Part shown: positions 35,954 through 62,113 of the stretch, in pieces
Layout: each line of letters starts with the position of its first letter
Numbering within the stretch: the stretch's first letter is position 1
Source: Marinifilum flexuosum
GTDB lineage: Bacteria > Bacteroidota > Bacteroidia > Bacteroidales > Marinifilaceae
Direction: 5' to 3'
Length of the DNA stretch: 64,000 nucleotides
Assembly (NCBI RefSeq): GCF_003610555.1
Contig: NZ_RAPQ01000008.1
Coordinates: 2,224,490 to 2,288,489 of the forward strand
Translations under genes and position numbers: made by a program
Notes under the pieces: generated by a model
Databases searched by the model: none
Told to the model about the DNA's origin: nothing
What the model saw: the letters and a program-made list of their open reading frames with translations, nothing else

Positions 35954-36027
35954 TGAACACGGAGGGAGTCGAACCCCCAACCTCCACAGCCGTAATGTGG
36001 TGCACTATCCAGTTATGCTACGCGTCC
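35954..36027 (-). tRNA. tRNA-Arg (anticodon ACG), copy 1
   Basis: 74 nt. Acceptor GGACGCG pairs with CGTGTTC (two G-U). The anticodon stem is CCACA/TGTGG with loop TTACGGC, giving anticodon ACG. The T arm holds GGTTCGACTCC. CCA is not encoded. It reads CGN arginine codons, probably after A34 to inosine editing. Confidence 0.95.
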
Positions 36028-36131
36028 GTTGGTCTCTTAAAAAAGAGGCTGCAAATATAGCAGTTTAAAATTTAGTTATGCAAATGAATTTGCATTTTTT
36101 TGTCGTCAACATTTCTGCGATGACTTCTTTC

Positions 36132-36174
36132 AAAAAAAAATTAAAAATCGTTACCGGATGAAGGGTAACGATTT
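36132..36174 (-). terminator. Terminator of tRNA-Arg copy 2
   Basis: Reverse strand AAATCGTTACC pairs perfectly with GGTAACGATTT, followed by a T-rich run. Confidence 0.85.
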
Positions 36175-36224
36175 CTTAACCTGGAAGGGTGGAAGCCCCT
36201 TTGCTCCAGGAAAGACTTTTAAAG

Positions 36225-36298
36225 TGAACACGGAGGGAGTCGAACCCCCAACCTCCACAGCCGTAATGTGGTGCACTATCCAGTTATGCTACGCGTCC
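36225..36298 (-). tRNA. tRNA-Arg (anticodon ACG), copy 2
   Basis: Identical 74-nt gene to copy 1, offset by 271 bases within a ~157-bp tandem duplication that also carries the downstream terminator. The 330 bases after it (36299-36630) hold no gene that I can see. Confidence 0.95.
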
Positions 36299-46820: not shown

Positions 46821-47870
46821 ATGAGGCATCCTTTATTACGTAATTTTTATGGAATACCAATCTATATTGGTGCGTGGATTTTATTCGTGTTGCTTCTCTT
46901 TATAATTGGGTGGTATTTTGATGGTAATGATCTATATTCCTCCTTTGTAAACTCATTTAGCTTCTCGTTGCCTCTATTTATTTTAGGAGCATGTGTTTGG
47001 TATGTAGTTCGTTACATCAGTATGGATGAATCCGGAATTTTGGGTTTTATACTTCATCATTTAACTGCAGGTGCGATTGTAGTTGGAATTTGGGTTTCTG
47101 CGGCATATCAAATTCGAATTGGCTTTTTTGGTGAAGATCCAGATGGAATTAACTATTTTATACCATTACATTGGCAGGTGTTTTTTGCATTCTGTGTTTA
47201 CGATTATCTAATATTGGTTTATTATCTGATAATTTATTACCGAAACTTTCAGGATAAAACCATTCAGGAATCGGAACTAAAAAACTTGGTGAAGGAAGCT
47301 GAATTAAATGCTCTAAAATCTCAAATTAATCCTCATTTTCTGTTTAATAGCTTAAATTCGGTTAGTTCACTTACATTATCAAGTCCGGAACAATCGCGGG
47401 AAATGGTTGTTAAATTGTCTACTTTCTTAAGGTATTCTTTGGGGCAAGATTTAAAGGAGTTAAATAGTTTATCAAACGAATTGAATAACATTCGCTTGTA
47501 TCTTGATATTGAAAAGGTGAGGTTTGGTGAAAGATTAGTATTAAAATTCAATTCTACTTCAGATTGTGATAATTTGAAGATCCCAAATTTAATCTTACAG
47601 CCAATTTATGAAAATGCAATTAAGTATGGGGTTCATGAAAGTCTGGAACCAGTAACGATTAATACCAATTGCGAATTGGTAAACCATGTACTAAAAATTA
47701 CAATTAGCAATAATTTTGATCCGGAATCCATTCCGCCAAGAGGCAATGGTATTGGATTAAGAAACATACAGGAACGATTAAGTTTAATTTATGGAAGAAG
47801 CGATTTGATGAAGATTGTTAAAACCGAAAATCAGTTTACCGTACATTTAGAATTCCCACAAAATATATAA
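46821..47870 (+). CDS. LytS/YehU-type sensor histidine kinase
   Basis: 349 aa. Four membrane segments (about residues 14-33, 45-65, 76-100, 117-138), then a His_kinase domain with His172 in INPHFLFNSLNS, and an ATPase region with LILQPIYENAIKYGVHE and GNGIGLRNIQERL. Phosphorylates the LytTR regulator that follows 2 bases later. With LiaF next door, the pair looks like an envelope-stress module with LytTR replacing LiaR. Confidence 0.92.
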   Translation: MRHPLLRNFYGIPIYIGAWILFVLLLFIIGWYFDGNDLYSSFVNSFSFSLPLFILGACVWYVVRYISMDESGILGFILHHLTAGAIVVGIWVSAAYQIRIGFFGEDPDGINYFIPLHWQVFFAFCVYDYLILVYYLIIYYRNFQDKTIQESELKNLVKEAELNALKSQINPHFLFNSLNSVSSLTLSSPEQSREMVVKLSTFLRYSLGQDLKELNSLSNELNNIRLYLDIEKVRFGERLVLKFNSTSDCDNLKIPNLILQPIYENAIKYGVHESLEPVTINTNCELVNHVLKITISNNFDPESIPPRGNGIGLRNIQERLSLIYGRSDLMKIVKTENQFTVHLEFPQNI

Positions 47871-47872
47871 TC

Positions 47873-48619
47873 ATGATAAAAGCAATTATTATAGATGATG
47901 AATCCTTGGCTAGAGATTTGGTGTCTAACTATTTGGATTCTGAAAACGATATTGAAGTTATAGGAGAGTATTCGAATGGTTTTGAGGGATTAAAGGCGAT
48001 TAATGATTTACATCCAGACTTGGTGTTTTTAGATGTACAAATGCCTAAACTAACTGGATTTGAATTGCTAGAATTACTTGATAAACCTTGTAATATCGTA
48101 TTTACTACAGCTTACAACGAATATGCAATAAAAGCATTTGAGCACAATGCCATTGATTACTTATTGAAACCATTTTCAAAAGATAGATTTCTTACAGCTT
48201 TGGACAAAGCAAAAGAGAGAATTTCGAATTCTACTGACAATCAGGATCAAATTGATAAAATTAAATCACACAATGATGAATCGGAAGAATTAATCAATAG
48301 AGTTGTAATCAAATCCAGAAACAAGATTGATGTAATTGCAGTTGATAAAATCAAATATTTCGAAGCACAAGATGATTATGTAATGATATATACTGCTGAT
48401 GGGCGATACCTGAAGCAAAAGACCATGAAGTATTTTGAGTCGCACTTAAATCCCAATGAGTTTTGCAGAATACACCGATCCTATTTGGTTAAAATAGATC
48501 AAATTTCACAATTGCAACCATATGAGAAAGACAATTGGGTGGTTGTCTTAAAATCAGGAGAAAGTTTAAAGGTTAGCCGTAATGGATTCAAACTTCTTAA
48601 GAAACAATTGGAAATTTAA
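47873..48619 (+). CDS. LytTR-family response regulator
   Basis: 248 aa. Receiver domain with acidic DDE at 8-10, phospho-acceptor Asp54 in VFLDVQMPKLTGFELL and FTTAYNEYAIKAFEHNAIDYLLKPF; C-terminal LytTR DNA-binding domain (about 140-248; YFEAQDDYVMIYTADGRYLKQKTMKYFE-type strand order and FCRIHRSYLV). Probably controls envelope genes, possibly the receptor gene downstream. Confidence 0.93.
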   Translation: MIKAIIIDDESLARDLVSNYLDSENDIEVIGEYSNGFEGLKAINDLHPDLVFLDVQMPKLTGFELLELLDKPCNIVFTTAYNEYAIKAFEHNAIDYLLKPFSKDRFLTALDKAKERISNSTDNQDQIDKIKSHNDESEELINRVVIKSRNKIDVIAVDKIKYFEAQDDYVMIYTADGRYLKQKTMKYFESHLNPNEFCRIHRSYLVKIDQISQLQPYEKDNWVVVLKSGESLKVSRNGFKLLKKQLEI

Positions 48620-48638
48620 TCGGAACTGGCATTGAGAA

Positions 48639-48676
48639 ATTCGTTATTACATAATTGTAGTAACGATTTTTTTTTG
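48639..48676 (+). terminator. Rho-independent terminator
   Basis: TCGTTATTAC pairs with GTAGTAACGA (one wobble) and is followed by nine T, ending the Lia-like operon. Confidence 0.86.
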
Positions 48677-48839
48677 CTCAAAGATGACAAAAAAACAGTA
48701 AGAATAGGCATTGGTTGTAGAAATTGGGATTTTATAAATTTTAAGTGAAATGATTTAAATGATGGATCAGTGGATTTATTTTTATTATAAATATTCGAAA
48801 TATTTTTGAAATAGTATTCCTATTCTCAACATAATCATA

Positions 48840-48847
48840 TATATTTG
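48840..48847 (+). promoter_or_regulatory. Possible -7 promoter element
   Basis: TATATTTG matches TAnnTTTG exactly, 37 bases before the receptor start. No clear -33 box. Confidence 0.4.
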
Positions 48848-48884
48848 TGTTGCCCAACTAGAGTTAACTAATCTAATTACTACA

Positions 48885-51326
48885 ATGAACCTAAAATTAA
48901 CTTACGCCAAGAGTGCGTTCATTATTATTTTGACATGCATTTTCTCTTCTCATGTGGCTTTTTCAAATAACCATTTAAATGAAAAAGGGAGTTCTTCACT
49001 AAAGGGGAAAATCGTTGAAAAACAATCAAACAAACCACTTGAATTTGCCACGATTTCAATTTATTCTTCTAATAATTCAAAGCTTGTAAAGGGAACAATT
49101 ACAAATAAGAGAGGGGATTTTGCACTAGAAAAATTATGTTCTGGATCTTATTATTTTAAGGTTGAGTATATGGGATATACCACTTACAATAGTAATCAGT
49201 TCGAGATAAAGAATGGAGAGAGTAAAGTACTTACCAATCCTGTGAAGCTTGAGGTTGACACTAAAACCATTTCCGAAGTAAAGGTTGAAGGAAATAGAGA
49301 ATTTTCTAAGGTGGAACTTGGTAAAACGGTTTACAATGTTTCCAAATCTCCAGTTGCCGATGGAGGAACCATAAATGAAGTTTTAAATACCCTTCCTAGA
49401 TTAAGTGTAGATGCTGAAGGAGCAATTCAATTTAGAGGGAGTTCTGATGTTAAGATTTTGATTGATGGTAAAATCAGTGGTCTTTTGGGGATGAATCCAG
49501 CTGAAGTTTTAAATAGCATGTCTGCCCATGATGTTGATCGTGTTGAAGTGATTAGTACATCTTCTGCTAGATATGATGCTACAGGAGCAGGAGGAATCAT
49601 TAACATTATCTTGAAAAAAGACCGAGTAAAAGGGTTTAATGGTAGTGTTGCAGCAACTGTTGGTACCAAGGATAAAAAGTCAGGTGGTTTTAGTGGTAAT
49701 TATCGTACCGGAAAAGTGAACTTCTTTGGTTCTTACAATTATAAAGATGACTGGGCAGGGCGTGATTACAATGTTCAGAGAGAAATCAAGAAAGAAGATG
49801 TTCATACTCTTTTATCAGAAAATGCGGATGTTGATTTTGGAAATCGATACCATATTGGAAAATTGGGTTTGGATTATCTGATTAATGATAATAACACTTT
49901 TACTTTTTCAGCCAAGTATCGTGATATACTTCAAAATTGGAACGGAAGCTACGATTATACTCGTACAAATGTTGTAAGTAGTGCGATGCCAACCATTGAT
50001 TATAGATTCAGTGAAGTTGATTTAGATCTGGAATCATGGATCTACAATGCATCTTACATCCATAAATTCGCTAAGAAAGGAGAAACTCTTTCGATAGATT
50101 TGGCTTATACTGATAATGCAGCAAATAATTCTGGTAATTATGCAGAGTATCTTAATATCCAATCTTTTGGACAGGATGTATTATTTGGATCAGATGTAAA
50201 CGCGACTAACTTGTATTCAGATTATTACAAAACCGCAAGAAAAGAAGCTGTAGCGCAAGTAGATTATGTGCTGCCTGTTGGGGATAAAGGCAAGTTTGAA
50301 ACTGGTTATCTATATCGAAATAATGAAATTGATTATAAGGTTGGTTCACTTGCTGATGATTTTAATTACGAAGAAAATATCCATGGTTTGTATGCTATGT
50401 ATTCTGGCTCAAAAGGAAAGTTTGCATACGAATTAGGTCTTCGTGCTGAATATTCTGACATTAATACCAACAAAGAATTTAAGGATGATTATTTAGATCT
50501 TTTTCCAAGTGTTCACTTGTCTTATCAGTTTTCGGATAAGAAGCAATGGCAATTGGCTTATAGCAGGATGATTTATCGACCAAATTCAGGAATGTTAAAT
50601 CCTTTCCAAAATCTTCGTGATCCGGAAAATCAAAGATTGGGTGCGCAGGATATTGAAGCTTATTACAATCACAATATAGAAATGTCGATGGCTTTCGATA
50701 GAGAAAAGGCTAGTTACAAGACAACTTTATATGTGAATTATCAAAAGAATTTGATCAATCAATACCGATTTATTGAAGATGAAACCAATAGATCCATAGT
50801 TCAATATGGTAATTTTGATTCGAAATTTTTCTCAGTATTAGAGTTTGAAGGATCAACCAAACTAAATAAATGGTGGAGTTTGAGTGGATATATAGCAGGT
50901 ATTTATGAGGAAACAAAACCTGGAGAAGGATATAAGTTTGGGACACGAGATATGTGGGAAGTTACTGGAAAAGTCACTTCAGTTATGAACTTCAAAAAGT
51001 GGTTTAAACTTCAGGCAAGCTTCCGTTATCAATCGGAAATATTGGTTGCACAAGGAAAGTATCAGAACTTGTACTATGTAGATTTAGGATTAAGTAGAAA
51101 AGTATTAAAAGGAAGAGGTAGTTTGTCTTTTACTGCTAATGACATATTCAATACTTTCAGATTTAAGATTCATACTTCAGATCCTGAGTTCTATAATAAG
51201 GAAATTAAATACAGAGAAACTCAAATTGCCAAATTAAGTTTTCGATACTTTTTTGGTAAGCGATATAGAATCATGAGAGCTAAACCTAAAAAATCAGGAA
51301 TCCGACATTCCGAAAATGATATTTAA
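48885..51326 (+). CDS. TonB-dependent-type outer-membrane beta-barrel protein
   Basis: 813 aa. Signal peptide to about residue 28, a CarboxypepD-reg-like domain (about 38-125, LKGKIVEKQSNKPLEFATIS), a plug-like domain (LNTLPRLSVDAEGAIQFRGSS, VKILIDGK, TSSARYDATGAGGIINIILK) and a long barrel of the OMP_b-brl_3 kind. Such proteins resemble TonB-dependent receptors but often lack a TonB box; transport substrate unknown. Ends with its own terminator. Confidence 0.87.
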   Translation: MNLKLTYAKSAFIIILTCIFSSHVAFSNNHLNEKGSSSLKGKIVEKQSNKPLEFATISIYSSNNSKLVKGTITNKRGDFALEKLCSGSYYFKVEYMGYTTYNSNQFEIKNGESKVLTNPVKLEVDTKTISEVKVEGNREFSKVELGKTVYNVSKSPVADGGTINEVLNTLPRLSVDAEGAIQFRGSSDVKILIDGKISGLLGMNPAEVLNSMSAHDVDRVEVISTSSARYDATGAGGIINIILKKDRVKGFNGSVAATVGTKDKKSGGFSGNYRTGKVNFFGSYNYKDDWAGRDYNVQREIKKEDVHTLLSENADVDFGNRYHIGKLGLDYLINDNNTFTFSAKYRDILQNWNGSYDYTRTNVVSSAMPTIDYRFSEVDLDLESWIYNASYIHKFAKKGETLSIDLAYTDNAANNSGNYAEYLNIQSFGQDVLFGSDVNATNLYSDYYKTARKEAVAQVDYVLPVGDKGKFETGYLYRNNEIDYKVGSLADDFNYEENIHGLYAMYSGSKGKFAYELGLRAEYSDINTNKEFKDDYLDLFPSVHLSYQFSDKKQWQLAYSRMIYRPNSGMLNPFQNLRDPENQRLGAQDIEAYYNHNIEMSMAFDREKASYKTTLYVNYQKNLINQYRFIEDETNRSIVQYGNFDSKFFSVLEFEGSTKLNKWWSLSGYIAGIYEETKPGEGYKFGTRDMWEVTGKVTSVMNFKKWFKLQASFRYQSEILVAQGKYQNLYYVDLGLSRKVLKGRGSLSFTANDIFNTFRFKIHTSDPEFYNKEIKYRETQIAKLSFRYFFGKRYRIMRAKPKKSGIRHSENDI

Positions 51327-51490: not shown

Positions 51491-54400
51491 ATGAGCTTGA
51501 AAATATTGGATATTAAGAAGCTGAAAAAAGCTAGAAGTATTGGCAGTAACAATAAACCCAGGTCAGGAAGTAGAAGAAATTTTCTAAAAGGATTGGGGTT
51601 TGGATTTCTTGCTTTTCAGCCTTCTTTAAAGGCTTTGGGAAAAGCTTTTGGAAATGATATTCAATATAGAAAGAGGGGAAAAAACATTACGTTTTACTCT
51701 CAGGAAGGAAATTCATGGAATATCAATTTGAATTCCTTTGATGGTAGTCCAAAATTAATTTTTCGTAAAAAACAGGAAGATTATCATCTAATTCTGCGAA
51801 ATGCTTTTTATCCTGGAACTACTTTGCCAATGGATTTTAAAGCCATTCTCTACAATGATTTATCCTGGAGAATAAAAATCACTTTTACCAAGCTGGATAT
51901 ATCGAAAGATCTTAATCTGGCAGATTGGATTAATGGTAATGCTCAGCTGAACTCATTTGTTTATTTGCAGGAGGGAATAGAATTGAATAATCGGTATTCA
52001 TTGGATATTGAAGATCATTATCATTTTATCATTGATAAATTTTGGAAAATAACTTTACAAGGAAAAGATCTTGCTAATTACAAATTGAATAATATTTCTG
52101 GGCTTGCTGAACAAATTTGTTTCAGCTTTCCTGTTGAGAAAGATCTTACATTTTGTAACTCCAATTTTGAACCAAAACTAAAATTGAGTATCACAACTCA
52201 AAATGTAGAACCATTCCTTTCAAATTGGAAAATTATGAACGGTTCAGAATTGAATAGTTGTAGTGAGGTACAGCATCAGGTTCAAATATTAAAATCTGAG
52301 AGACTCTCAGGGATGTGTTCATCGGTAGTATTGGTTGATGAAAAGGATGTTAAGGATAGAAAAGGCTTTTTATTTCATAAGAAAATTAATGAAGATCTGG
52401 AAGAAACACTTAAGCTTTATCGTTCACAACTTGCAATTGAGCTAAATCAGCAATCAGAAAAGTTTATTTTTATTGCCAGTATTGCAAGTAATGGTATTTG
52501 GACAAATTCTTCCGAAGTTTCATACCAGTTAATCAATTCAAAGAAAAATGCCGCTTTTGAAATGCATGGTACAAATGGTAGAATAAATTCTGTAAACGGA
52601 TTGGCACAGGTTGCTGCTACCAAATACCTGTTACCCGATGCCATTAGTTTGGCAGTTGAGTATCCTGAGAAACCTGCCATTGAAATTGAATATCAGGATC
52701 AGAAATTGCAATCTAAGAAGAAGCTTGTAATTGATTCCCGATTGGGAAAGATTAAAATTAAGGAGAAGGAAATTATAAGATTGAGTGTGCTTAGACCTGA
52801 GGACATGTTATTTCTTCAGTTTGAGTTCTACAATTTCAAATACATAAAAAAAGATCAACTAAGCTATTTAGAAATTAACAATACCAAGAAGCCGGCAACT
52901 ATGGTGGTTGTGTTTCCACCTCAACATACATTGGAGCAAGCCTTTTGGGAAAACAATTCATTGCCAGGAGGTGAGGGGAATGAAAATGTAATTCTACCTG
53001 CAAAATACATTCGTAGTGGAAAAAGCAGATTGGTGTATTCGGTTCCTTCCAGTTTTAAGGGAATGCCAATTATTATGGAGGAATTGTTAAACTGGTCACG
53101 TTTTAAGTTGAGGGTAAATTATCGTGCCAGGGTTTTGGAGCCAGTTAAAGTAGTAGTTAATAAATTTCAGAATCTGGGTTCTTTTATCAATAAGAAAAGT
53201 ACCAGTCAACCCAAAACCATTAGTAGACAAAGTTTAAGTATTGCGAAATATTCAAAGAATCGTTTAAGTAGCAGATCCCTTTACAATAAAGATCAGTTAT
53301 CGAAGAATTTACCTGCTGAAGTAAGCGGACAGCTGTATGTAAAGATCAACTATGCAGCTTTGAAAGCCAATTTGTTGGAGATGAGAAAACCGAATCTATT
53401 GGAAACCTCTATTGAGGCACCGACTAGGCTATTCATTTCACCGAATCAATTGGCAGGTTTTGCTCATCAACAGAAGATTCACTTAAAGGATCATAAGGAA
53501 ACGCCAAAGGGAAATATTCAGAACCTGCAATATAATAATCCATTAATTACCAATAAAGGGAAGTTATCGGAATTGTGGCATTCACGTATGGGAGTTCGTT
53601 TAAAAAATGGAGAAATTGATGAAGAGGGGATGGAAGGATTTAGAAGCATTCGTGCACTTTGGGCTAGGGATGCATTCAAAAAATTAACTCCTAAGCCACC
53701 AAGAAATAAGCCGTTTCGAACCGCCTTAGATGGAAGAGATCGACACAATATCGTTCATCAAACTTCGAATTTTACAATTAAGTCCTACACACCAAGAGCT
53801 GTGCAGGCCAAACGATTCATGATGTCTTCCTTAGGAGCATGGATTGATTTTAATGCAAACTTTAATTATCCGGATTTTCATGCACAACCTGATTTGGAAC
53901 TTTTGGAATGGGAACACCTATCAACTTTAGGTAGAGATCACTATGTAAAAGTAGTTGAAGCAGGATTTCTGTTTCCCTTCGGACATACGGCGGCATTGGT
54001 GAAGATTACAGAACGAAAACCTGATAAGACAACAAGAGCTGCCGTGAATCGCCAAAGAATCTACATTGTGATTCTTGAGCCTGTTGTATATTATGAGATG
54101 AGGGATCAACAAAATGGGTATATTCCGTTTCCTTTCCAAACCGTTGAAATGCCAGCTACACGAACGCCAGATTTGGATGCCCCCGTTGATCTGGTGAATA
54201 TGGGTGGAGATTACAACTTCTTGATTCGAAGTGGTGGCACGGATTTGATCTTTGATTTACTATTGGTGGATCAGGAAGGGCGTGAGCAAAAGATAAAACT
54301 GCCTTTGATATTTATAGGAAAATCGGCTGCCTATGATGAAGCCAAATCAGAGCAATTGGTGAATGTTTACAATGCTGAGATGAATCGATTCAAGGCTGAT

Positions 54401-56152
54401 TTTAATTTGCAAATGGTGGCCTATTCTCCATCATTGATTGAAGATGATACAACTTTCGAGACCTCTTTGATTGATTTCGGAGCATTGTCTCTTGAAAATA
54501 AAGCTGCTACAGTACTGAAGTTTCATCCCAAGGTGAAGACTGCTTCGGTTAAAGTGAAGGCAATAGAGGAATTAACAGGAAATCCTGATCCTGTGAATAT
54601 TGAATTACAGGATGATGAAAATGCGGCCAAGGTATTTGCCAAGGTGTTGGACAATCTGAAAGCCGATTTTTCAAGTGAATCAGATAAGTCAGGAGGTTTC
54701 ATGAGCCCCAATACCCAGGTTACTTCACTTTCGAAGTTGAAAGGACCATTGGGTGGAGCAGTGGATAAATTGCAAAATCTGGAATTCGATCCATCAGAGT
54801 TCTTTGCCTCTTCGGGCGATATGCCGGTAGCCAAGTTGTTTGGTGTGGTGTCCATTTTCGATTTACTATTGGGCAATTTGAACTTTGGGGATCAAGGAAA
54901 TCAGCAGTCTGAAGCCTTAAGTGGAATCAGTCAGCAAATGGAATCCCTAAAGGAAGATATTCTGGAACAACAAGCCATTTTGGAAACCGCGGCTGAGGAT
55001 GCCCAGACAGCGATTGAACAGGAGATTCAGAATTTGAGAAATCAATTGGAGTCGAAAGTCAATGAATTGGAACAGCAATTGACCAGTCAGATTCCTCGAA
55101 TCCCAAACTTTAATGCATACAAAACCGATAAGGCATTTGTGGTAGAATATCGTTGGATACCGGAAATGGAAGCCAGTAAGTCTTTATTTGGAGGATTTCT
55201 AACGGTGAATGTTCAAAAACCAAATGAAGCATTACAGGTTCTAAGTAAATTGAGTAGGCCTTTCGACACTTCGCAAAAAACACAGTTTGGTGTAAATGCA
55301 TCTTTCACTGATTTTTCGGTTGAGATCAAAGAATTGATTCGGGTAAGTTTTAAATCTCTGAAGTTTGGAGGAGGATCGGGTAAGAAAGCCGATGTGAAAG
55401 TGGAAATGGCGGAAGACGATTCAATTCTCTTTCTGGGTCCATTGAGTTTTGTAAATCAATTGCAGAATTTGATTCCTTCCAATGGATTTGCTGATGGACC
55501 ATATATGAAATTATCACCTGCAGGAGTTAAAGCTGGCTTCGATTTGGCTATACCGAGTGTAGAGGTCGGTGTTTGTACCATTGCAAATATGACACTGGGA
55601 GCTGGAGTTCATCTGCCATTTACAGGAGCTCCACTTACCCTTTCCTTTAATTTCTGTAAGCGTGAATCACCATTCCTATTAACGGTTTCTGCATTTGGTG
55701 GTGGAGGTTATTTCTTGATGAAAACCAGCGTAAAAGGATTTGTTGGAATGGAGGCGGCTTTCGAGTTTGGTGCAGCCTTATCCATGAATTTTGGAGTAGC
55801 AAGTGGAGGTGTATCTGTAATGGGAGGTTTCTATTTCAGTATGGAAATCGTGGATGATCATACCGAAACCATACTAACAGGTTACATCCGTTTTAACGGA
55901 TATTTATCGATACTTGGAATCATAAGTCTTTCCTTGGAAATTTATTTGGCTTTTGTCGCCATGTTCCAGAATGGAAAGGTTGAAAAATTATATGGTGAAG
56001 CCATTGTAAAAGTGAAGATTGAAGTGTTATTCTTCAGCAAAACTGTGACTTTAACAGCTCGAAGAGAATTAAAGGGAGCCGATGCGGATCCAACCTTCCA
56101 AATGATTATGGAAGAAAACGATTGGTTGGAATACTGTCAAGCATACGCATGA
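51491..56152 (+). CDS. Giant protein of unknown function, Tat-like N-terminus (pair member 1)
   Basis: 1553 aa. Residues 27-33 read SRRNFLK and are followed by a hydrophobic stretch (34-42), a twin-arginine-type signal with a long n-region and no clear AxA cleavage site. Segments stand out: LFISPNQLAGFAH near 642, LWHSRMGVRL near 694, DGRDRHNIVHQTS near 746, MMSSLGAWIDF near 776, GRDHYVKVVEAGFLFPFGH near 814, a coiled coil at about 1138-1198, and a Gly-rich alternating beta region at about 1340-1510 (SAFGGGGYFLM, FGVASGGVSVMGGFYFSME). From memory similar blocks occur in large uncharacterised actinobacterial proteins; not checked. Pairs with the next giant gene. Function unknown; I see no catalytic motif. 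Confidence 0.9.
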   Translation: MSLKILDIKKLKKARSIGSNNKPRSGSRRNFLKGLGFGFLAFQPSLKALGKAFGNDIQYRKRGKNITFYSQEGNSWNINLNSFDGSPKLIFRKKQEDYHLILRNAFYPGTTLPMDFKAILYNDLSWRIKITFTKLDISKDLNLADWINGNAQLNSFVYLQEGIELNNRYSLDIEDHYHFIIDKFWKITLQGKDLANYKLNNISGLAEQICFSFPVEKDLTFCNSNFEPKLKLSITTQNVEPFLSNWKIMNGSELNSCSEVQHQVQILKSERLSGMCSSVVLVDEKDVKDRKGFLFHKKINEDLEETLKLYRSQLAIELNQQSEKFIFIASIASNGIWTNSSEVSYQLINSKKNAAFEMHGTNGRINSVNGLAQVAATKYLLPDAISLAVEYPEKPAIEIEYQDQKLQSKKKLVIDSRLGKIKIKEKEIIRLSVLRPEDMLFLQFEFYNFKYIKKDQLSYLEINNTKKPATMVVVFPPQHTLEQAFWENNSLPGGEGNENVILPAKYIRSGKSRLVYSVPSSFKGMPIIMEELLNWSRFKLRVNYRARVLEPVKVVVNKFQNLGSFINKKSTSQPKTISRQSLSIAKYSKNRLSSRSLYNKDQLSKNLPAEVSGQLYVKINYAALKANLLEMRKPNLLETSIEAPTRLFISPNQLAGFAHQQKIHLKDHKETPKGNIQNLQYNNPLITNKGKLSELWHSRMGVRLKNGEIDEEGMEGFRSIRALWARDAFKKLTPKPPRNKPFRTALDGRDRHNIVHQTSNFTIKSYTPRAVQAKRFMMSSLGAWIDFNANFNYPDFHAQPDLELLEWEHLSTLGRDHYVKVVEAGFLFPFGHTAALVKITERKPDKTTRAAVNRQRIYIVILEPVVYYEMRDQQNGYIPFPFQTVEMPATRTPDLDAPVDLVNMGGDYNFLIRSGGTDLIFDLLLVDQEGREQKIKLPLIFIGKSAAYDEAKSEQLVNVYNAEMNRFKADFNLQMVAYSPSLIEDDTTFETSLIDFGALSLENKAATVLKFHPKVKTASVKVKAIEELTGNPDPVNIELQDDENAAKVFAKVLDNLKADFSSESDKSGGFMSPNTQVTSLSKLKGPLGGAVDKLQNLEFDPSEFFASSGDMPVAKLFGVVSIFDLLLGNLNFGDQGNQQSEALSGISQQMESLKEDILEQQAILETAAEDAQTAIEQEIQNLRNQLESKVNELEQQLTSQIPRIPNFNAYKTDKAFVVEYRWIPEMEASKSLFGGFLTVNVQKPNEALQVLSKLSRPFDTSQKTQFGVNASFTDFSVEIKELIRVSFKSLKFGGGSGKKADVKVEMAEDDSILFLGPLSFVNQLQNLIPSNGFADGPYMKLSPAGVKAGFDLAIPSVEVGVCTIANMTLGAGVHLPFTGAPLTLSFNFCKRESPFLLTVSAFGGGGYFLMKTSVKGFVGMEAAFEFGAALSMNFGVASGGVSVMGGFYFSMEIVDDHTETILTGYIRFNGYLSILGIISLSLEIYLAFVAMFQNGKVEKLYGEAIVKVKIEVLFFSKTVTLTARRELKGADADPTFQMIMEENDWLEYCQAYA

Positions 56153-56421
56153 TAACAGTTATCAATTAACAGTTATCAATTAATAATGAGTAATTAATAA
56201 TAAATAATGCGAATTAAGAGAGGCTAAGGATGAAAGTAAGTTGGGTATATCTAGGGGCGTTAGCCCCGTTATCTTCGTAGCGAAATGTTTAATGGGAAAA
56301 AATAGGGGCTTTAGCCCTGATATCTGAAAAGGGATAATTAACAGTTAACAATTAATAATGAGTAATTAAAAATATTGGCTTAGAAGAACTAGAGCTAATT
56401 AATATCATAACTACTTAAACA
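56153..56421. repeat. AT-rich intergenic repeat block with GGGGC hairpins
   Basis: TAACAGTTATCAATTAA occurs twice at 56153-56190, a variant TTAACAGTTAACAATTAA at 56338-56355, each followed by TAATGAGTAATTA. Between them are two hairpins, GGGGC-GTTA-GCCCC (56254-56267) and AGGGGCTTTAGCCCT (about 56304-56318). A third copy begins at 60581. The block starts at the stop codon of the first giant gene. Confidence 0.8.
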
Positions 56422-59400
56422 ATGAAACAAAAAATCATATTCACCTGTTTGCCACATCGAATTGAGGAAGAAAAACTTCGATTTTCGGTGCAGGTAAGTT
56501 TGCGTCTCGAAAATGCGAGTTCAACTACTTTAGTGAGTTTTCCGGACATGGAGAATTGGCCTGAAAAGTTAAAAAACTCTAGTTTTCAACTAAGGCTAAA
56601 GAATGGAAAAGAATATGATATTGATCTGAATTCAAGTGTGATGGATGAGGATTTGTGGGGGAAGTTAATGCATAATGATATACGGGTGGATGGATTTCAG
56701 CAGGAAGATTTAACGCATAGCAGAATTCATTCCTATCCAATCAAACATGTACAGACTTTTGTGTTAGATACCTATAAAAGGCTTGGTGTGCAGAATCCTG
56801 ATCGTTTAATAGATCCAAAGGATTTGAGTGATCCGAAAAGTTTGGGACAGATTTCAAAATTTAAGAAACGAGATACCCCAAAGTCCCCAGAAAGTAACAC
56901 AACAGCTGCAGGAAGAAGGGTGGTTAAGGAATCTGATTTTTTAGATGTGGATGAATCGACTTCCAAACGATTGGAAGAGCTAAGAAGAAAGAATGGATTT
57001 GTTCCTTTCCAGCAACAGGCCAATCCTAAAATGGATTTCGCACAGTTTAGGGATTTTCACAAGACTGATCGTCCAACGCGTTACGAACCTTTGGCTAAAA
57101 TCAAGAAGCCTGAATTCGAGTTTCATGATATTCTGGCGGTGGTCAGCACTTATCCGCAAATACAGAGAAAACTGGGTGTGGTATTGGATTTTTCTATGGA
57201 TATCCCCAATGGATTTCCTGCTGATCATTCTATGCGATTGATTATTCAGAACATTGATTTTACAACAGATACGGAAGTCTTGGTTCCTTTGACGGCTTAC
57301 CGCTACACCGAAAAAGGATTCTATGCAAAATCAAAGGAAGGGTCTGATGTCAATTTGGGATTTGTGAAAATCAATACCGATAAGTTTACTGCTTTTCAGA
57401 TAGATGCCGATGGGGTGGCCATGAAGGTAAACCAGATGGTGGATAATAAGATACAGGAAGAGGTAAAGCTAAAAATTGTGGAACTGGATCTGGGTAAAAG
57501 TAAACGATTTAAGAATGGAGTCATCCCGGCTGATGAACCTGAAAAGGAAGGACTGCCAAGTTTGCGATCGGCAGGTATTGGAATTGCCCGTAATGGAATG
57601 GGGCAGCATTTAAATGCCAGGTTTGTTAAAGCAAAACAATTGCAAGCCAAGATCATCGATTCATCGAAAATGGATGACAGTTTACAGCTCATTCTTTCCG
57701 ATGAAAAACTATATGCCGAGGATTTGGTGCAAGGCTACAGAATGGATGTGGCTTATTCAACAGAACCTGAGAAGTGGCTTTCTTTGCACATGAGAAAGGA
57801 ATCCTATTCCTACTTCGATTCTGGTAATGTAGAAGAATTCATAGATGATATTAAGACTGATGAGGGATTCATACAAACCGCAGCTGCCGAGGATACAGAG
57901 AATGCCAATGAGCTATTCGTTGGAGAAAATATGATTCGTTGGGAAGGATGGAGTTTATCGGTTCCTAAGCCTGGATTCGCCATTAATGAAGCCGAAGATG
58001 ATAATGTTGATCCATCAAAACAAGTGGACTATGTGAACAAATCAAAGAATGTTGAGGTGAAGAAGTACCAGTTTGATACCACCAGGGAGTTCAGGTTGCA
58101 TACCAAAACAAAAACGGTGAAGGGAACATTGCCACGATTACGTTTTGGAAAGGATTATATGCTTCGTGTGAGAACGGTGGATTTGGCAGGCAATAGTGTG
58201 CCTCTTGACTCTCAACCAGAGAAAGTTTCTGAAGCAGTTATTCGTGGATTTAGATATTACAGGTATGATGCTTTAATGAATCCGGTATTGCTATTGGGAT
58301 CGGAATTGAAAGATGGAGAGGCCTTGGAAGAATTGGTAGTTCGCAGCAATTACAATATGAGCACCGAGGAGTTTCAGAAAAGATATGGGAATGTAGATTC
58401 AAGTGAGAATACAGAAGCAACAAGACATTTTCTACCACCAAGAAATTCCCAATTGATTGCTGAGCAACATGCCAAGTTTGATAAGGCTTTTGGGAACAAT
58501 CCTGAAGTGGCCAAGGCGTTGTATGAACTGATTAGCTCGAAGGAAGTACAACTGGAAAAGGGTAAGAATGGAAAGGAAAAAGTGTACAAGGGAGATCAGG
58601 TGGATTTGATTTACTTGCCTGATCCAGCAGCAGCAGGTTTGGCTCTCTTCTTAGCTGATGGATATGATGATACGCATTCACAAACTTTTGAACCTAGATT
58701 GTTTAGTTTCTTTGGCAATGATGAATTAAGTCCGAATAATACTCATATCAATCTCTCTGATGATGAATGGTTCAAAGCAAAATCTTTGCGTGTTCAGTTG
58801 GTAGAAGGAAATACAGCCTTTAATTGGAATGCTTCTGCCCGAGTTTTAATTGTATCGCTGCCAAAGGGAGAAAGAATTAAGCTGAGGTTTTCTACTTTTT
58901 GGAAAGAGAAGGATATGGAGGAACTTTCTGGCATGTGGCAACTGCTTCAGGAGGACAATCCAGGGAATATTACAAAGCTTAAAGAGCTGGCAAAAACCGG
59001 AAGACATTGGATGATTAGTCCGGCACGAGAAATAGAATTGACTCATGCAGTTCAACAACCTGTGGATGCTCCTCAAATCGAAATCATTAATCCTGATAAG
59101 AATTACGGCAATACGCATGCATGGCTACACACCAGGTTTTCGGTACACGGATTCTCTACCCACAAAGTTGAGTATAAAGCGCGATGGAAGGACAGAAGAG
59201 ATGATCCAAGAGCGGTTGAGCCGGATTGGGTTGATCATTCGGATAGTGTAGAAGAAATTGACATACAATATCACGATAAAACTGTAGACAAAGGAAGTCT
59301 TCCTGAGAAGAAAGATCCTTCCAAACAAATTGCCATTCAGGGACAGGCCAATCAGGTAAAGCCACAATTAAAGGTGAGTTTGGCAAGTGAGTTCAGTGGA

Positions 59401-60585
59401 GCACTAAAGCACAAGTTTGGAGATACCAAGCATCGATATGTGGATTATCATCCTGAAGCTACAACAAGATATGCTGAGCATTTCGACAAGCTAATCAAAT
59501 CGGAAGGATTGGAAATTACCAGGGATGGAGAAAGGTTCGAAAAGGTGAATATCTTAAGTTCCGATCGTCCGAAATTACCATTTGTTGATTATGTGATTCC
59601 AACATTTGAGTGGAGAAAGACAAAAACAGCTATGGTCATGCGTCAGCATCGTTTGGGTGGCGGATTGCGTGTATACTTGAAACGTCCTTGGTTTTCAACG
59701 GGTGAAGATGAGATGTTGGCGGTAGTATTGCCGGGATCAGATCCATCGAAGATATCGCAGACCATTGCAGCATTGGGAACGCCGGGGTTCAATACCATGT
59801 TTACCCATTGGGCACAAGATCCTATACGTCCATCGAAACCTGGAAGTATGAATTATCCGGGCATCAATGATTTTAGGCACAATCCAAGTATTGACAAGGG
59901 ATTGGTATATCCCGGCAAGGAGAATGTAAAAGTAAATGCAATTTGTTATCCTGTAGCGTTTGACAAGGAAAGAAAGTTATGGTATGCCGATTTTGCCCTT
60001 AATCATGGCAAGATGTATTTTCCATTCGTAAAATTGGCTTTGGCCAGATATCAAGAACACTCGGTTCGTAAGGCGGGGCGTGATGTGTGCTTGTCGTCCA
60101 TTGTGATGGCCGATTACATTCAATTGGTACCAGAGCGAATTGCAACGCTTACCTTTAAAAAGGACAATATGAATTCCCGATTTACCCTTCAGGTTGAAGG
60201 AGTAATATCCAATGCATTGGATCGAAATGGGAGTACGGGAAACTATTTAGACATTAGCTTCCTAGATCCGGAATTGGTTCAGCCTGTTTACGGAAGTGTG
60301 AGTGATGGTAGAAATGAGGAGAGTTTGGAGGATGAGGGAGTGAGAATTGCAATATCAGGCAGTGTGGTGAAAAACAACTATTTCACCATTGTTCGTGAAT
60401 TTAAGTTGAGCAGAAAGTATAAAGACCAGCCTTTGCAGGTAATTGTACAAGAATTTGAAGGAGCACCTCCAGTCAGTAGAAATATAAGAAGTATTGCAAG
60501 TGGAGTAAATGAAGAAAATCAAGCACGATTGGTTTATGCGGATGTGTTTAAAATAAACGCACCGAATAAATCAATCGACAATTAA
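56422..60585 (+). CDS. Giant protein of unknown function (pair member 2)
   Basis: 1387 aa, no signal peptide. N-terminus (MKQKIIFTCLPHR, LRFSVQVSLRLENA) is a beta-rich domain; Lys/Arg-rich low-complexity linker about 150-200; LRFGKDYMLRVRTVDLAGNSVPL near 570-595 looks Fn3-like; GGGLRVYLKRPWFSTGEDEML near 1078-1098, YPVAFDKERKLWYADFALN near 1176 and LALARYQEHSV near 1206 form the most distinctive C-terminal block. From memory the GGGLRVYL-RPW block recurs in uncharacterised actinobacterial proteins next to homologues of member 1. Its stop codon falls inside a copy of the ATTAACAGTTATCAATT repeat. Function unknown. Confidence 0.9.
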   Translation: MKQKIIFTCLPHRIEEEKLRFSVQVSLRLENASSTTLVSFPDMENWPEKLKNSSFQLRLKNGKEYDIDLNSSVMDEDLWGKLMHNDIRVDGFQQEDLTHSRIHSYPIKHVQTFVLDTYKRLGVQNPDRLIDPKDLSDPKSLGQISKFKKRDTPKSPESNTTAAGRRVVKESDFLDVDESTSKRLEELRRKNGFVPFQQQANPKMDFAQFRDFHKTDRPTRYEPLAKIKKPEFEFHDILAVVSTYPQIQRKLGVVLDFSMDIPNGFPADHSMRLIIQNIDFTTDTEVLVPLTAYRYTEKGFYAKSKEGSDVNLGFVKINTDKFTAFQIDADGVAMKVNQMVDNKIQEEVKLKIVELDLGKSKRFKNGVIPADEPEKEGLPSLRSAGIGIARNGMGQHLNARFVKAKQLQAKIIDSSKMDDSLQLILSDEKLYAEDLVQGYRMDVAYSTEPEKWLSLHMRKESYSYFDSGNVEEFIDDIKTDEGFIQTAAAEDTENANELFVGENMIRWEGWSLSVPKPGFAINEAEDDNVDPSKQVDYVNKSKNVEVKKYQFDTTREFRLHTKTKTVKGTLPRLRFGKDYMLRVRTVDLAGNSVPLDSQPEKVSEAVIRGFRYYRYDALMNPVLLLGSELKDGEALEELVVRSNYNMSTEEFQKRYGNVDSSENTEATRHFLPPRNSQLIAEQHAKFDKAFGNNPEVAKALYELISSKEVQLEKGKNGKEKVYKGDQVDLIYLPDPAAAGLALFLADGYDDTHSQTFEPRLFSFFGNDELSPNNTHINLSDDEWFKAKSLRVQLVEGNTAFNWNASARVLIVSLPKGERIKLRFSTFWKEKDMEELSGMWQLLQEDNPGNITKLKELAKTGRHWMISPAREIELTHAVQQPVDAPQIEIINPDKNYGNTHAWLHTRFSVHGFSTHKVEYKARWKDRRDDPRAVEPDWVDHSDSVEEIDIQYHDKTVDKGSLPEKKDPSKQIAIQGQANQVKPQLKVSLASEFSGALKHKFGDTKHRYVDYHPEATTRYAEHFDKLIKSEGLEITRDGERFEKVNILSSDRPKLPFVDYVIPTFEWRKTKTAMVMRQHRLGGGLRVYLKRPWFSTGEDEMLAVVLPGSDPSKISQTIAALGTPGFNTMFTHWAQDPIRPSKPGSMNYPGINDFRHNPSIDKGLVYPGKENVKVNAICYPVAFDKERKLWYADFALNHGKMYFPFVKLALARYQEHSVRKAGRDVCLSSIVMADYIQLVPERIATLTFKKDNMNSRFTLQVEGVISNALDRNGSTGNYLDISFLDPELVQPVYGSVSDGRNEESLEDEGVRIAISGSVVKNNYFTIVREFKLSRKYKDQPLQVIVQEFEGAPPVSRNIRSIASGVNEENQARLVYADVFKINAPNKSIDN

Positions 60586-60597: not shown

Positions 60598-60710
60598 GGG
60601 AGGAATAAGCTTGCGGCTTGAAGCTGATTGCTGGAGGCTTGATAAATTGGTAATTGCCATCAATAAACCTCGATCAAACGTATACCTCAAGAAATAAAAT
60701 TAACAATACA

Positions 60711-61418
60711 ATGACCAAAGAAGAAGTTTTCAAAGAGTTGGAATCTTTCGGAAACGAAGGAACCAAAAATGTTCTCATAAAACATGGAGCTCGTGAGCCA
60801 TTTTATGGTGTAAAAGTTCAGGATTTGAAGAAAATTGTAAAGAAGATTAAAAAAGATTATCAGCTCTCATTGGAATTGTATGATTCAGGAAATTCTGATG
60901 CCATGTATTTGGCAGGATTAATTGCGGATGAGAAAATGATGAGCAAAGAGGATCTTCAAAAGTGGGTAAAAGGAGCATATTGGTACATGATTAGTGAATA
61001 CACTGTGCCTTGGATTGCGGCAGAGTCTGAATTTGGTTTTGAGTTGGCTTTGGATTGGATTGAATCCAAGGAAGAAAATACTGCAGCTGCAGGTTGGGCT
61101 ACATTATCGAGTTTAGTGGCTATAAAAAACGATGAAGAATTAGATGTAATTTTGCTTAAAAATTTGATTGGGAGAGTTGAAAGGGAGATTCATACTTCAT
61201 CGAATCGGGTAAAATATACCATGAATGGTTTTGTAATCTCAGTAGGTGCTTATGTTTCTGCATTAACGAATTTGGCGATGAAGCATGCCGAGAAGATTGG
61301 CAAAGTAGATGTATACATGGGAAAAACATCATGCAAAGTACCTTTTGCTCCGGAATACCTGCAGAAAATAATTGATAAAGGAAGGGTAGGAAAGAAGAAA
61401 AAAACAGCTAGATGCTAG
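60711..61418 (+). CDS. DNA alkylation repair / HEAT-repeat protein (AlkD superfamily)
   Basis: 235 aa from ATG at 60711 (MTKEEVFKELESFGNEG); upstream in-frame codons from 60654 are unlikely. Helical HEAT-like repeats throughout: YGVKVQDLKKIVKKIKKDY, AMYLAGLIADEKMMSKEDLQKWV, WIAAESEFGFELALDWI, AAGWATLSSLVAIKN. The family includes 3-methyladenine glycosylases but many members are non-catalytic; the SWWDxVD motif is not present here. A second AlkD-type gene follows 35 bases later. Confidence 0.8.
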   Translation: MTKEEVFKELESFGNEGTKNVLIKHGAREPFYGVKVQDLKKIVKKIKKDYQLSLELYDSGNSDAMYLAGLIADEKMMSKEDLQKWVKGAYWYMISEYTVPWIAAESEFGFELALDWIESKEENTAAAGWATLSSLVAIKNDEELDVILLKNLIGRVEREIHTSSNRVKYTMNGFVISVGAYVSALTNLAMKHAEKIGKVDVYMGKTSCKVPFAPEYLQKIIDKGRVGKKKKTARC

Positions 61419-61453
61419 TAGAATAATTAAGCTTTTGCGAAAATAAGTTTATC

Positions 61454-62113
61454 ATGCAAACAAAAACCATCCTAATAGTAGAACAGTTTAGAAAGAATTC
61501 TAACGAGGTCAATGCCAGAAAAATGTCGGCATATATGAAAAATCATTTCCCTTTTCTGGGTTTGCCAAAACCACAAAGAGTTGAATTGAGTAAAGATTTT
61601 TTGAGAGAAATTACCAAAGAGAAAATGATTGATTGGAATTTGGTCAACTACTTGTGGGAACTTTCTGAACGAGAATTTCAATACCTGGCTTTGGAATATC
61701 TTGCGAAATTAAAGAAGCAGCTTGAAAAATCAGATATTTCGAACTTGGAGCAATTGATTGTTACAAAATCGTGGTGGGACTCGGTTGATGTCTTGGCTCC
61801 GCTGGTAGGTGTATTGTGTAAAAAATATCCTGAATTAAAGACTGAGGTTCTGGATGATTGGATCATTAGTTCGAATATTTGGTTGAAACGTGTATCCATT
61901 CTATTTCAATTAAAATACAAGAATGATGTAGATACAGAATTTCTTTCAAAGACAATTATAGCAAATAACCTGAGTAATGAGTTCTTTGTGAACAAAGCCA
62001 TAGGTTGGGCATTGCGACAGTATTCAAAATTTAATCCCGATTGGGTCAAAGAATTTATCTCCAGGTATCCTTTGTCGCCGTTAAGTATTCGCGAAGGCAG
62101 TAAATATTTGTAA
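61454..62113 (+). CDS. AlkD-type DNA alkylation repair glycosylase
   Basis: 219 aa. HEAT-repeat DNA glycosylase that removes bulky or positively charged alkyl-purines without base flipping. SWWDSVD at 106-112 matches the AlkD Trp/Asp active-site motif, and NKAIGWALRQYSKFNPDWV near 183-201 the distal Trp helix; HFPFLGLPKPQR near 31 also fits. Likely catalytic, unlike the upstream relative. Confidence 0.9.
   Translation: MQTKTILIVEQFRKNSNEVNARKMSAYMKNHFPFLGLPKPQRVELSKDFLREITKEKMIDWNLVNYLWELSEREFQYLALEYLAKLKKQLEKSDISNLEQLIVTKSWWDSVDVLAPLVGVLCKKYPELKTEVLDDWIISSNIWLKRVSILFQLKYKNDVDTEFLSKTIIANNLSNEFFVNKAIGWALRQYSKFNPDWVKEFISRYPLSPLSIREGSKYL

Follow-up and report, generated by a model that had tools for sequence, protein, structure and literature searches.

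A tandem of two giant genes in Marinifilum flexuosum

A stretch of 64,000 nucleotides (nt) from Marinifilum flexuosum (assembly GCF_003610555.1, contig NZ_RAPQ01000008.1, positions 2,224,490 to 2,288,489 of the forward strand), referred to here as the window, contains two giant genes that a first-pass annotation had singled out as a candidate two-gene system. Both open reading frames (ORFs) are intact and lie in tandem on the plus strand, as had been described: P1 (51491-56152) encodes 1553 amino acids (aa; 175 kDa) and is the member bearing a twin-arginine translocation (Tat) motif, and P2 (56422-60585), without such a motif, encodes 1387 aa (158.5 kDa). All the features of P1 and P2 given below are on the plus strand.

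P1 starts with a putative Tat signal at aa 27-50 (51569-51640), recognized by motif and made up of the twin-arginine motif SRRNFLKG and a hydrophobic stretch; this motif is common to P1 of the window and its close relatives L011-L015 (the loci analyzed are numbered L001-L105). It is followed by an N-terminal extension delimited by alignment (aa 55-426; 51653-52768), which shorter homologues such as those of L006 and L010 do not have, by a predicted beta-rich core (aa 427-1115; 52769-54835), and by a coiled-coil hairpin (aa 1133-1199; 54887-55087) indicated by structure prediction and length comparison. The core and the anchor are separated by 304 residues in the window, by 181-210 residues in 20 of the 50 measurable proteins (26 of 76 were not measurable) and by 1007 residues in the giant version of Sinorhizobium meliloti, and the predicted structures and the alignments point to coiled coil as the source of this difference. 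The coiled coil proposed in the first-pass annotation is present in the window, as part of a stretch of variable length rather than as a core feature.

The C-terminal part of P1 consists of an amphipathic beta module (aa 1206-1530; 55106-56080), whose residues 1332-1530 resemble outer-membrane barrels in fold, and a conserved tail, DWLEYCQAYA (56120-56149), with the family pattern W..YC.AFA. According to a loose pattern, a W..Y-type tail ends 75 of 78 P1 proteins; the giant proteins of L096-L098 end otherwise. The strands of the module, which is predicted to be barrel-like, are long and two-faced: one face is polar, the other hydrophobic and almost free of charges, and several of the hydrophobic faces cover strands that are 14-19 residues in length. 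In Foldseek the module matched best the trimeric outer-membrane protein SlpA (PDB 8ae1), in which a coiled coil is likewise joined to a barrel; the E-value was 3.7e-4 but the TM-score 0.10 and the root-mean-square deviation 31.6, so that no overall similarity is shown. Matches to microsomal triglyceride transfer protein, P47, ApoB100 and LptD were weak, with no TM-score higher than 0.17 and all E-values exceeding 0.001.

P2 includes an Fn3-like segment at aa 568-592 (GTLPRLRFG...VDLAGNS; 58123-58197), a predicted Ig/Fn3-like region at aa 876-1381 (residues 689-1194 of the model; 59047-60564) and, at aa 1077-1097 (59650-59712), the signature RLGGGLRVYLKRPWFSTGEDE. Structure predictions started after P1 aa 1-426 and P2 aa 1-187, the fold comparison of P2 used VIA only, and the lists of fold matches were dominated by the barrel and Ig-like parts, with the remaining parts barely probed. 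The resemblance of P2 to proteins with Fn3 or Ig domains is below the level of a trusted match and leaves much of the protein uncovered. P1 and P2 were also considered as paralogues, an option discarded given an hhalign probability of 0.2%.

The spacer between the two genes (56153-56421) is 269 nt long and contains small repeats; in the family the median gap is 25 nt, with ORF starts set mechanically and negative values being unsure. A 39-nt repeat is found twice in the spacer of the window, along with two AGGGGC[G/T]TTAGCCC units, a pattern that occurs eight times in the 5.17 Mb genome and never in its reversed version, used as control. Spacer length ranges from 17 to 368 nt among the Marinifilum loci L011-L015.

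P1 and P2 in searches for known families

No Pfam or NCBIfam family matched P1 or P2 of the window above its curated cut-off. When 18 members of each family were compared with both libraries, the lowest E-value was 0.00015 among the P1 proteins and 0.01 among the P2 proteins, in both cases for a single member, and no library family was matched by more than two of the 18 members. In PHROGs there was no convincing match for either protein, P1 giving E-values of 0.0016 with a family of unknown function (aa 318-376) and of 0.013, on the coiled coil, with a virion structural family. The best hit with the anti-phage defence models of PADLOC had an E-value of 0.42, again on the P1 coiled coil, with none for P2, and queries of the PDB sequences with single proteins and profiles returned nothing at E < 0.5. 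Toxin, Rhs, extracellular contractile injection system (eCIS) and type VI secretion system (T6SS) families of the libraries scanned did not match P1 or P2 either. Weak matches to apolipoprotein, OmpH and the like fell mostly on the coiled coil and were dropped.

The earlier statement that no domain could be named in these proteins thus stands in Pfam, NCBIfam, PHROGs, PADLOC and the PDB sequences, where homology to a characterized family, which would have spoken against a new system, was not found. As far as it was accessible, the literature on giant genes, on the genera concerned, on dedicated Tat components and on how large Tat cargo can be contained nothing on the P1-P2 pair, which appears to be undescribed in the libraries and literature searched. 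What is new is the protein pair itself, not the export route discussed below.

P1 and P2 are conserved as a pair

A scan of genome contigs gave 458 stretches encoding a P2 relative, the best 80 of which were kept as 79 loci (L011-L089), a best-scoring subset tilted towards the kin of the window. Both proteins were sought at the loci in one round of profile searching. In 73 of these 79 loci, P2 is immediately preceded by a P1 homologue in the same orientation; in each of the other six (L030, L031, L035, L037, L041 and L075), the contig begins within P2. The two genes also adjoin in the five plasmid loci examined first (5/5), with P1 being split in L008. Among 395 genomes of the phylum of the window, P2 matches were obtained in 20, 18 of them strong; those in G132 and G217 were dropped, as they were short (44-67 residues) and limited to the Fn3-like part. 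P1 matches were obtained in 19 genomes, namely the 18 with a strong P2, including that of the window, and G287. The protein found in the latter (G287:C11, locus L094), of more than 2,100 aa, shares only the C-terminal module and a core stretch with P1, adjoins a weak, below-cut-off match to M15 peptidases, and may represent a remote branch. A set of 249 genomes of Pseudomonadota, the phylum of Bradyrhizobium L066, gave matches in the centre genome and in G702, with P1 beside P2 in both.

The pairing of P1 with P2 is real and old. Counting how often the homologues are adjacent had been set as the test of a two-gene system, and both that count and the presence of the two proteins in the same 18 genomes bear the proposal out. 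Exceptions are three rhizobial plasmids, which carry a truncated P2 without a P1 match in the fetched flanks. A larger conserved operon was rejected because no third gene recurs widely: recurring neighbours were seen in at most 10 of 84 loci, chiefly among near relatives, and no Pfam family was common to more than three of the 92 neighbouring proteins scanned, out of 138 listed. Nor, with no widely recurring neighbour in these sets, is the pair surrounded by the sheath, tube and baseplate genes of a contractile injection system (eCIS, T6SS or phage tail).

Distribution of the pair

P2 was present in five of the 57 genomes searched as relatives, that of the window included, and the closest P2 relatives among the best 80 stretches belong to Marinifilum (Bacteroidota). 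The named phyla among the 58 rows of a FastTree phylogeny of P2, from which the Streptomyces and giant plasmid versions were left out, are Bacteroidota, Armatimonadota, Pseudomonadota, Aminicenantota, Acidobacteriota, Balneolota, Chlorobiota, Myxococcota and Bacillota, Paenibacillus being among the homologues. A tblastn search of plasmids for P2 identified 11 records (Streptomyces, Rhizobium, Cupriavidus and others); with the relatives on three Streptomyces plasmids, Actinomycetota are added and the named phyla are ten in all. A resemblance to proteins of Actinobacteria had previously been put forward, and these three plasmids confirm it.

In the tree, Bacteroidota form one side of a fully supported branch, while Pseudomonadota need three changes, with Bradyrhizobium grouping with metagenome-assembled genomes of Acidobacteriota. 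The topology suggests horizontal transfer of the pair, and the spread across phyla postulated in the first-pass annotation fits the patchy presence (5/57 and 18/395 genomes) and the occurrence on plasmids; transfer is suggested rather than proved, given the warnings of the tree tool about long branches and mixed bins. A phage origin was rejected for want of relatives, none having been confirmed in a scan of viral contigs or found in phage records.

Tat motifs in P1 and neighbouring TatA genes

Proteins were classified with a strict rule, i.e. a twin-arginine motif among residues 1-90 and, after it, an uncharged hydrophobic window. It was satisfied by 49 of 69 P1 proteins, none of 78 P2 proteins and 15 of 662 neighbouring ORFs, the latter being mechanical ORFs of at least 150 aa. 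Nine of the 20 P1 proteins failing the rule have a visible twin-arginine motif, and a looser motif was found in 56 of 70, some of these matches being spurious. The motif is also present in P1 of Streptomyces L006 and in five divergent plasmid or giant P1 proteins (L096-L098, L099 and L102). The N-terminus of P2 is a conserved core stretch, with Sec signals judged by eye only. Export is likely where P1 has a Tat motif.

The divergent plasmid versions of Sinorhizobium, Ruegeria and Agrobacterium have P1 proteins of 3039-3311 aa (329-363 kDa) with N-terminal Tat motifs, and P2 proteins that, where unsplit, reach 1766-1899 aa; Rhizobium L102 and G702 (L099, 2275 aa) are the other two with a Tat motif in a P1 of this group. 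Genes of the TatA family, all above the cut-off of Pfam, were identified in a scan of loci L001-L105, in which some places are represented twice. In L067, L068 and L072 the gene precedes P1, in L096 it comes after P2, and in L104 after the remnant of P2. The corresponding whole genomes contain three (L067), two (L068) and two (L072) TatA/B matches, and each of the two plasmid records (L096, L104) contains one. A rough post hoc estimate put the number of such neighbours expected by chance at 0.13, with probabilities of about 0.008 for two or more and 3e-7 for five or more; it assumed three TatA/B genes per 3,500 genes and covered 84 loci (64 flanks upstream and 78 downstream), to which ten flanks were added for the giants. 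In the genome of M. flexuosum, the single TatC match and both TatA/B matches lie away from the pair.

A candidate Tat-exported complex

Beyond the pair, its conservation, the motif counts and the TatA genes beside some loci, we infer that P1 and P2 associate physically, are exported together and act outside the cytoplasmic membrane in an envelope or secreted machine. The explanation we favour, to which we give an even chance, is a giant complex exported by Tat, with P2 riding on P1. The two proteins would be subunits of an unnamed, self-contained assembly; P1, bearing the Tat signal, would fold in the cytoplasm together with P2, and the signal-less P2 would cross the translocase with it as a folded hitchhiker. 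Once outside, P1 would supply its beta-rich core, the W..YC.AFA tail and the barrel-like or sheet module before it at the C-terminus, plus, where present, a coiled-coil stalk whose length varies; P2 would supply the Ig/Fn3-like domains. Lineages without a Tat motif would have to rely on a different route or retain the pair inside the cell.

In Escherichia coli, hitchhiker export through Tat has been described for the oxidoreductase PaoABC (PMC4273604). As in that system, one subunit has a twin-arginine signal, by motif in the case of P1, and its partner does not, and export of P1-P2 as a folded complex is presumed here. Unlike PaoABC, neither P1 nor P2 matches an enzyme family, and both exceed the 150 kDa quoted in a review as the upper size of Tat cargo (PMC6708511).

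Several facts weigh against this explanation. P1 without its 48 N-terminal residues has a mass of 169.7 kDa and P2 one of 158.5 kDa, which leaves three options: Tat carries more than the quoted 150 kDa, P2 is not exported with P1, or export takes another route. Tat export does not hold for the whole family, because eleven of the 69 P1 proteins have no convincing motif (L007-L010, L066, L071, L077, L079, L082, L085 and L086; six from Pseudomonadota, two from Acidobacteriota and one each from Myxococcota, Bacillota and Actinomycetota), and the motif of L078, which passed the strict rule, is doubtful. The TatA cases are few and three of them stem from one P2 clade, two other members of which (L054 and L081) had no TatA-like ORF in the locus scan; in L104, P2 is a truncated remnant without P1. 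Pairing is also broken by the three rhizobial plasmids mentioned above (L103, L104 and L105), where no P1 match was found in the fetched flanks, and by G287 (L094), whose divergent giant P1 relative lies at a contig edge without a P2 match.

Alternative explanations

The long hydrophobic faces of the P1 module would also suit a closed or folded sheet, hydrophobic inside, that carries a lipid or other hydrophobic compound across the envelope. Such a carrier would function without an outer membrane, and the weak Foldseek matches to microsomal triglyceride transfer protein, P47, ApoB100 and LptD are in line with it; their low TM-scores and poor E-values tell against it, and we consider this role unlikely.

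A secreted antagonistic weapon, spread by plasmids and having variable lytic partners, seems improbable as well. Three giant versions (L096, L098 and L102) are on plasmids typed as conjugative, and genes for lytic functions are found around several loci: a trypsin-domain protein and a phage-lysozyme/M23 protein behind the pair of G702 (L099), an M35 peptidase four genes behind L097, the weak, sub-threshold M15 match next to L094, an M23 protein adjoining the P2 remnant of L103, a Tle1-like lipase before L089 and a patatin-like protein near L008. These neighbours were dropped as partners for being too varied, and the weapon reading is at odds with the lack of a Pfam family common to more than three scanned neighbours, with the failure of P1 and P2 to match toxin, Rhs, eCIS or T6SS families in the libraries scanned, and with the Bacteroidota copies forming one P2 clade.

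P1 could, on the basis of the fold of its module, be a true outer-membrane beta-barrel protein, with the module inserted and the rest of the protein and P2 on the surface or in the periplasm. We regard this as quite unlikely. Streptomyces and Paenibacillus, which have homologues, do not have an outer membrane. Tat delivers folded proteins, barrels reach the barrel assembly machinery (BAM) unfolded through Sec, and P1 has a Tat motif rather than a Sec signal. The conserved tail comes after the last strand, so this strand is not C-terminal as a BAM signal, and strands of 14-19 residues with hydrophobic faces exceed the usual membrane span. P1 differs from OmpG, CymA and autotransporter domains in these same respects, namely its Tat motif, its tail and its homologues in bacteria without an outer membrane.

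An ancestral cytoplasmic role, with the Tat signal added later in some lineages, would account for the eleven P1 proteins without a convincing motif and is very improbable, given that Tat motifs are present in both groups defined by the main split of the P2 tree, in Streptomyces L006 and in the divergent giants, and that TatA genes adjoin the pair in two distant lineages.

Returning to export of P1 and P2 by Tat as a complex, the cargo would amount to approximately 330 kDa in the window and to more than 500 kDa in the rhizobial plasmid versions. It would exceed the quoted 150 kDa and test how Tat handles giant folded loads, including the contribution of locus-linked TatA, and the puzzle of its mass makes the pair a good test object for Tat. 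A broader proposal, which we advance tentatively and judge rather more likely to be wrong than right, is that of an ancient self-contained module, present in ten named phyla, that travels as folded Tat cargo above any size seen quoted, is served in some lineages by a TatA of its own, and assembles beyond the cytoplasmic membrane into a machine of barrel and stalk. The pair, kept across these phyla and yet without a name or a domain in the libraries searched, may represent an envelope or secreted assembly of a new kind, available in environmental bacteria that are in culture.

Other features of the locus

Upstream of P1, on the same strand, genes for a histidine kinase, a LytTR regulator and an OMP_b-brl_3 outer-membrane protein (46821-51326) are kept in the Marinifilum and Labilibaculum loci L011-L016 and are context of this lineage only; the kinase/LytTR pair and the outer-membrane protein gene might form a regulated unit there. 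The pattern TAnnTTTG occurs twice before the OMP_b-brl_3 gene and is absent from the gaps before P1 and P2. Behind P2, two adjacent genes of the DNA-alkylation-repair family (60654-62113) are kept in L011-L018. Further away, at 35954-36298 on the minus strand, two matches to tRNA, with the same score and with starts 271 nt apart, are the only Rfam matches of the window at the gathering threshold.

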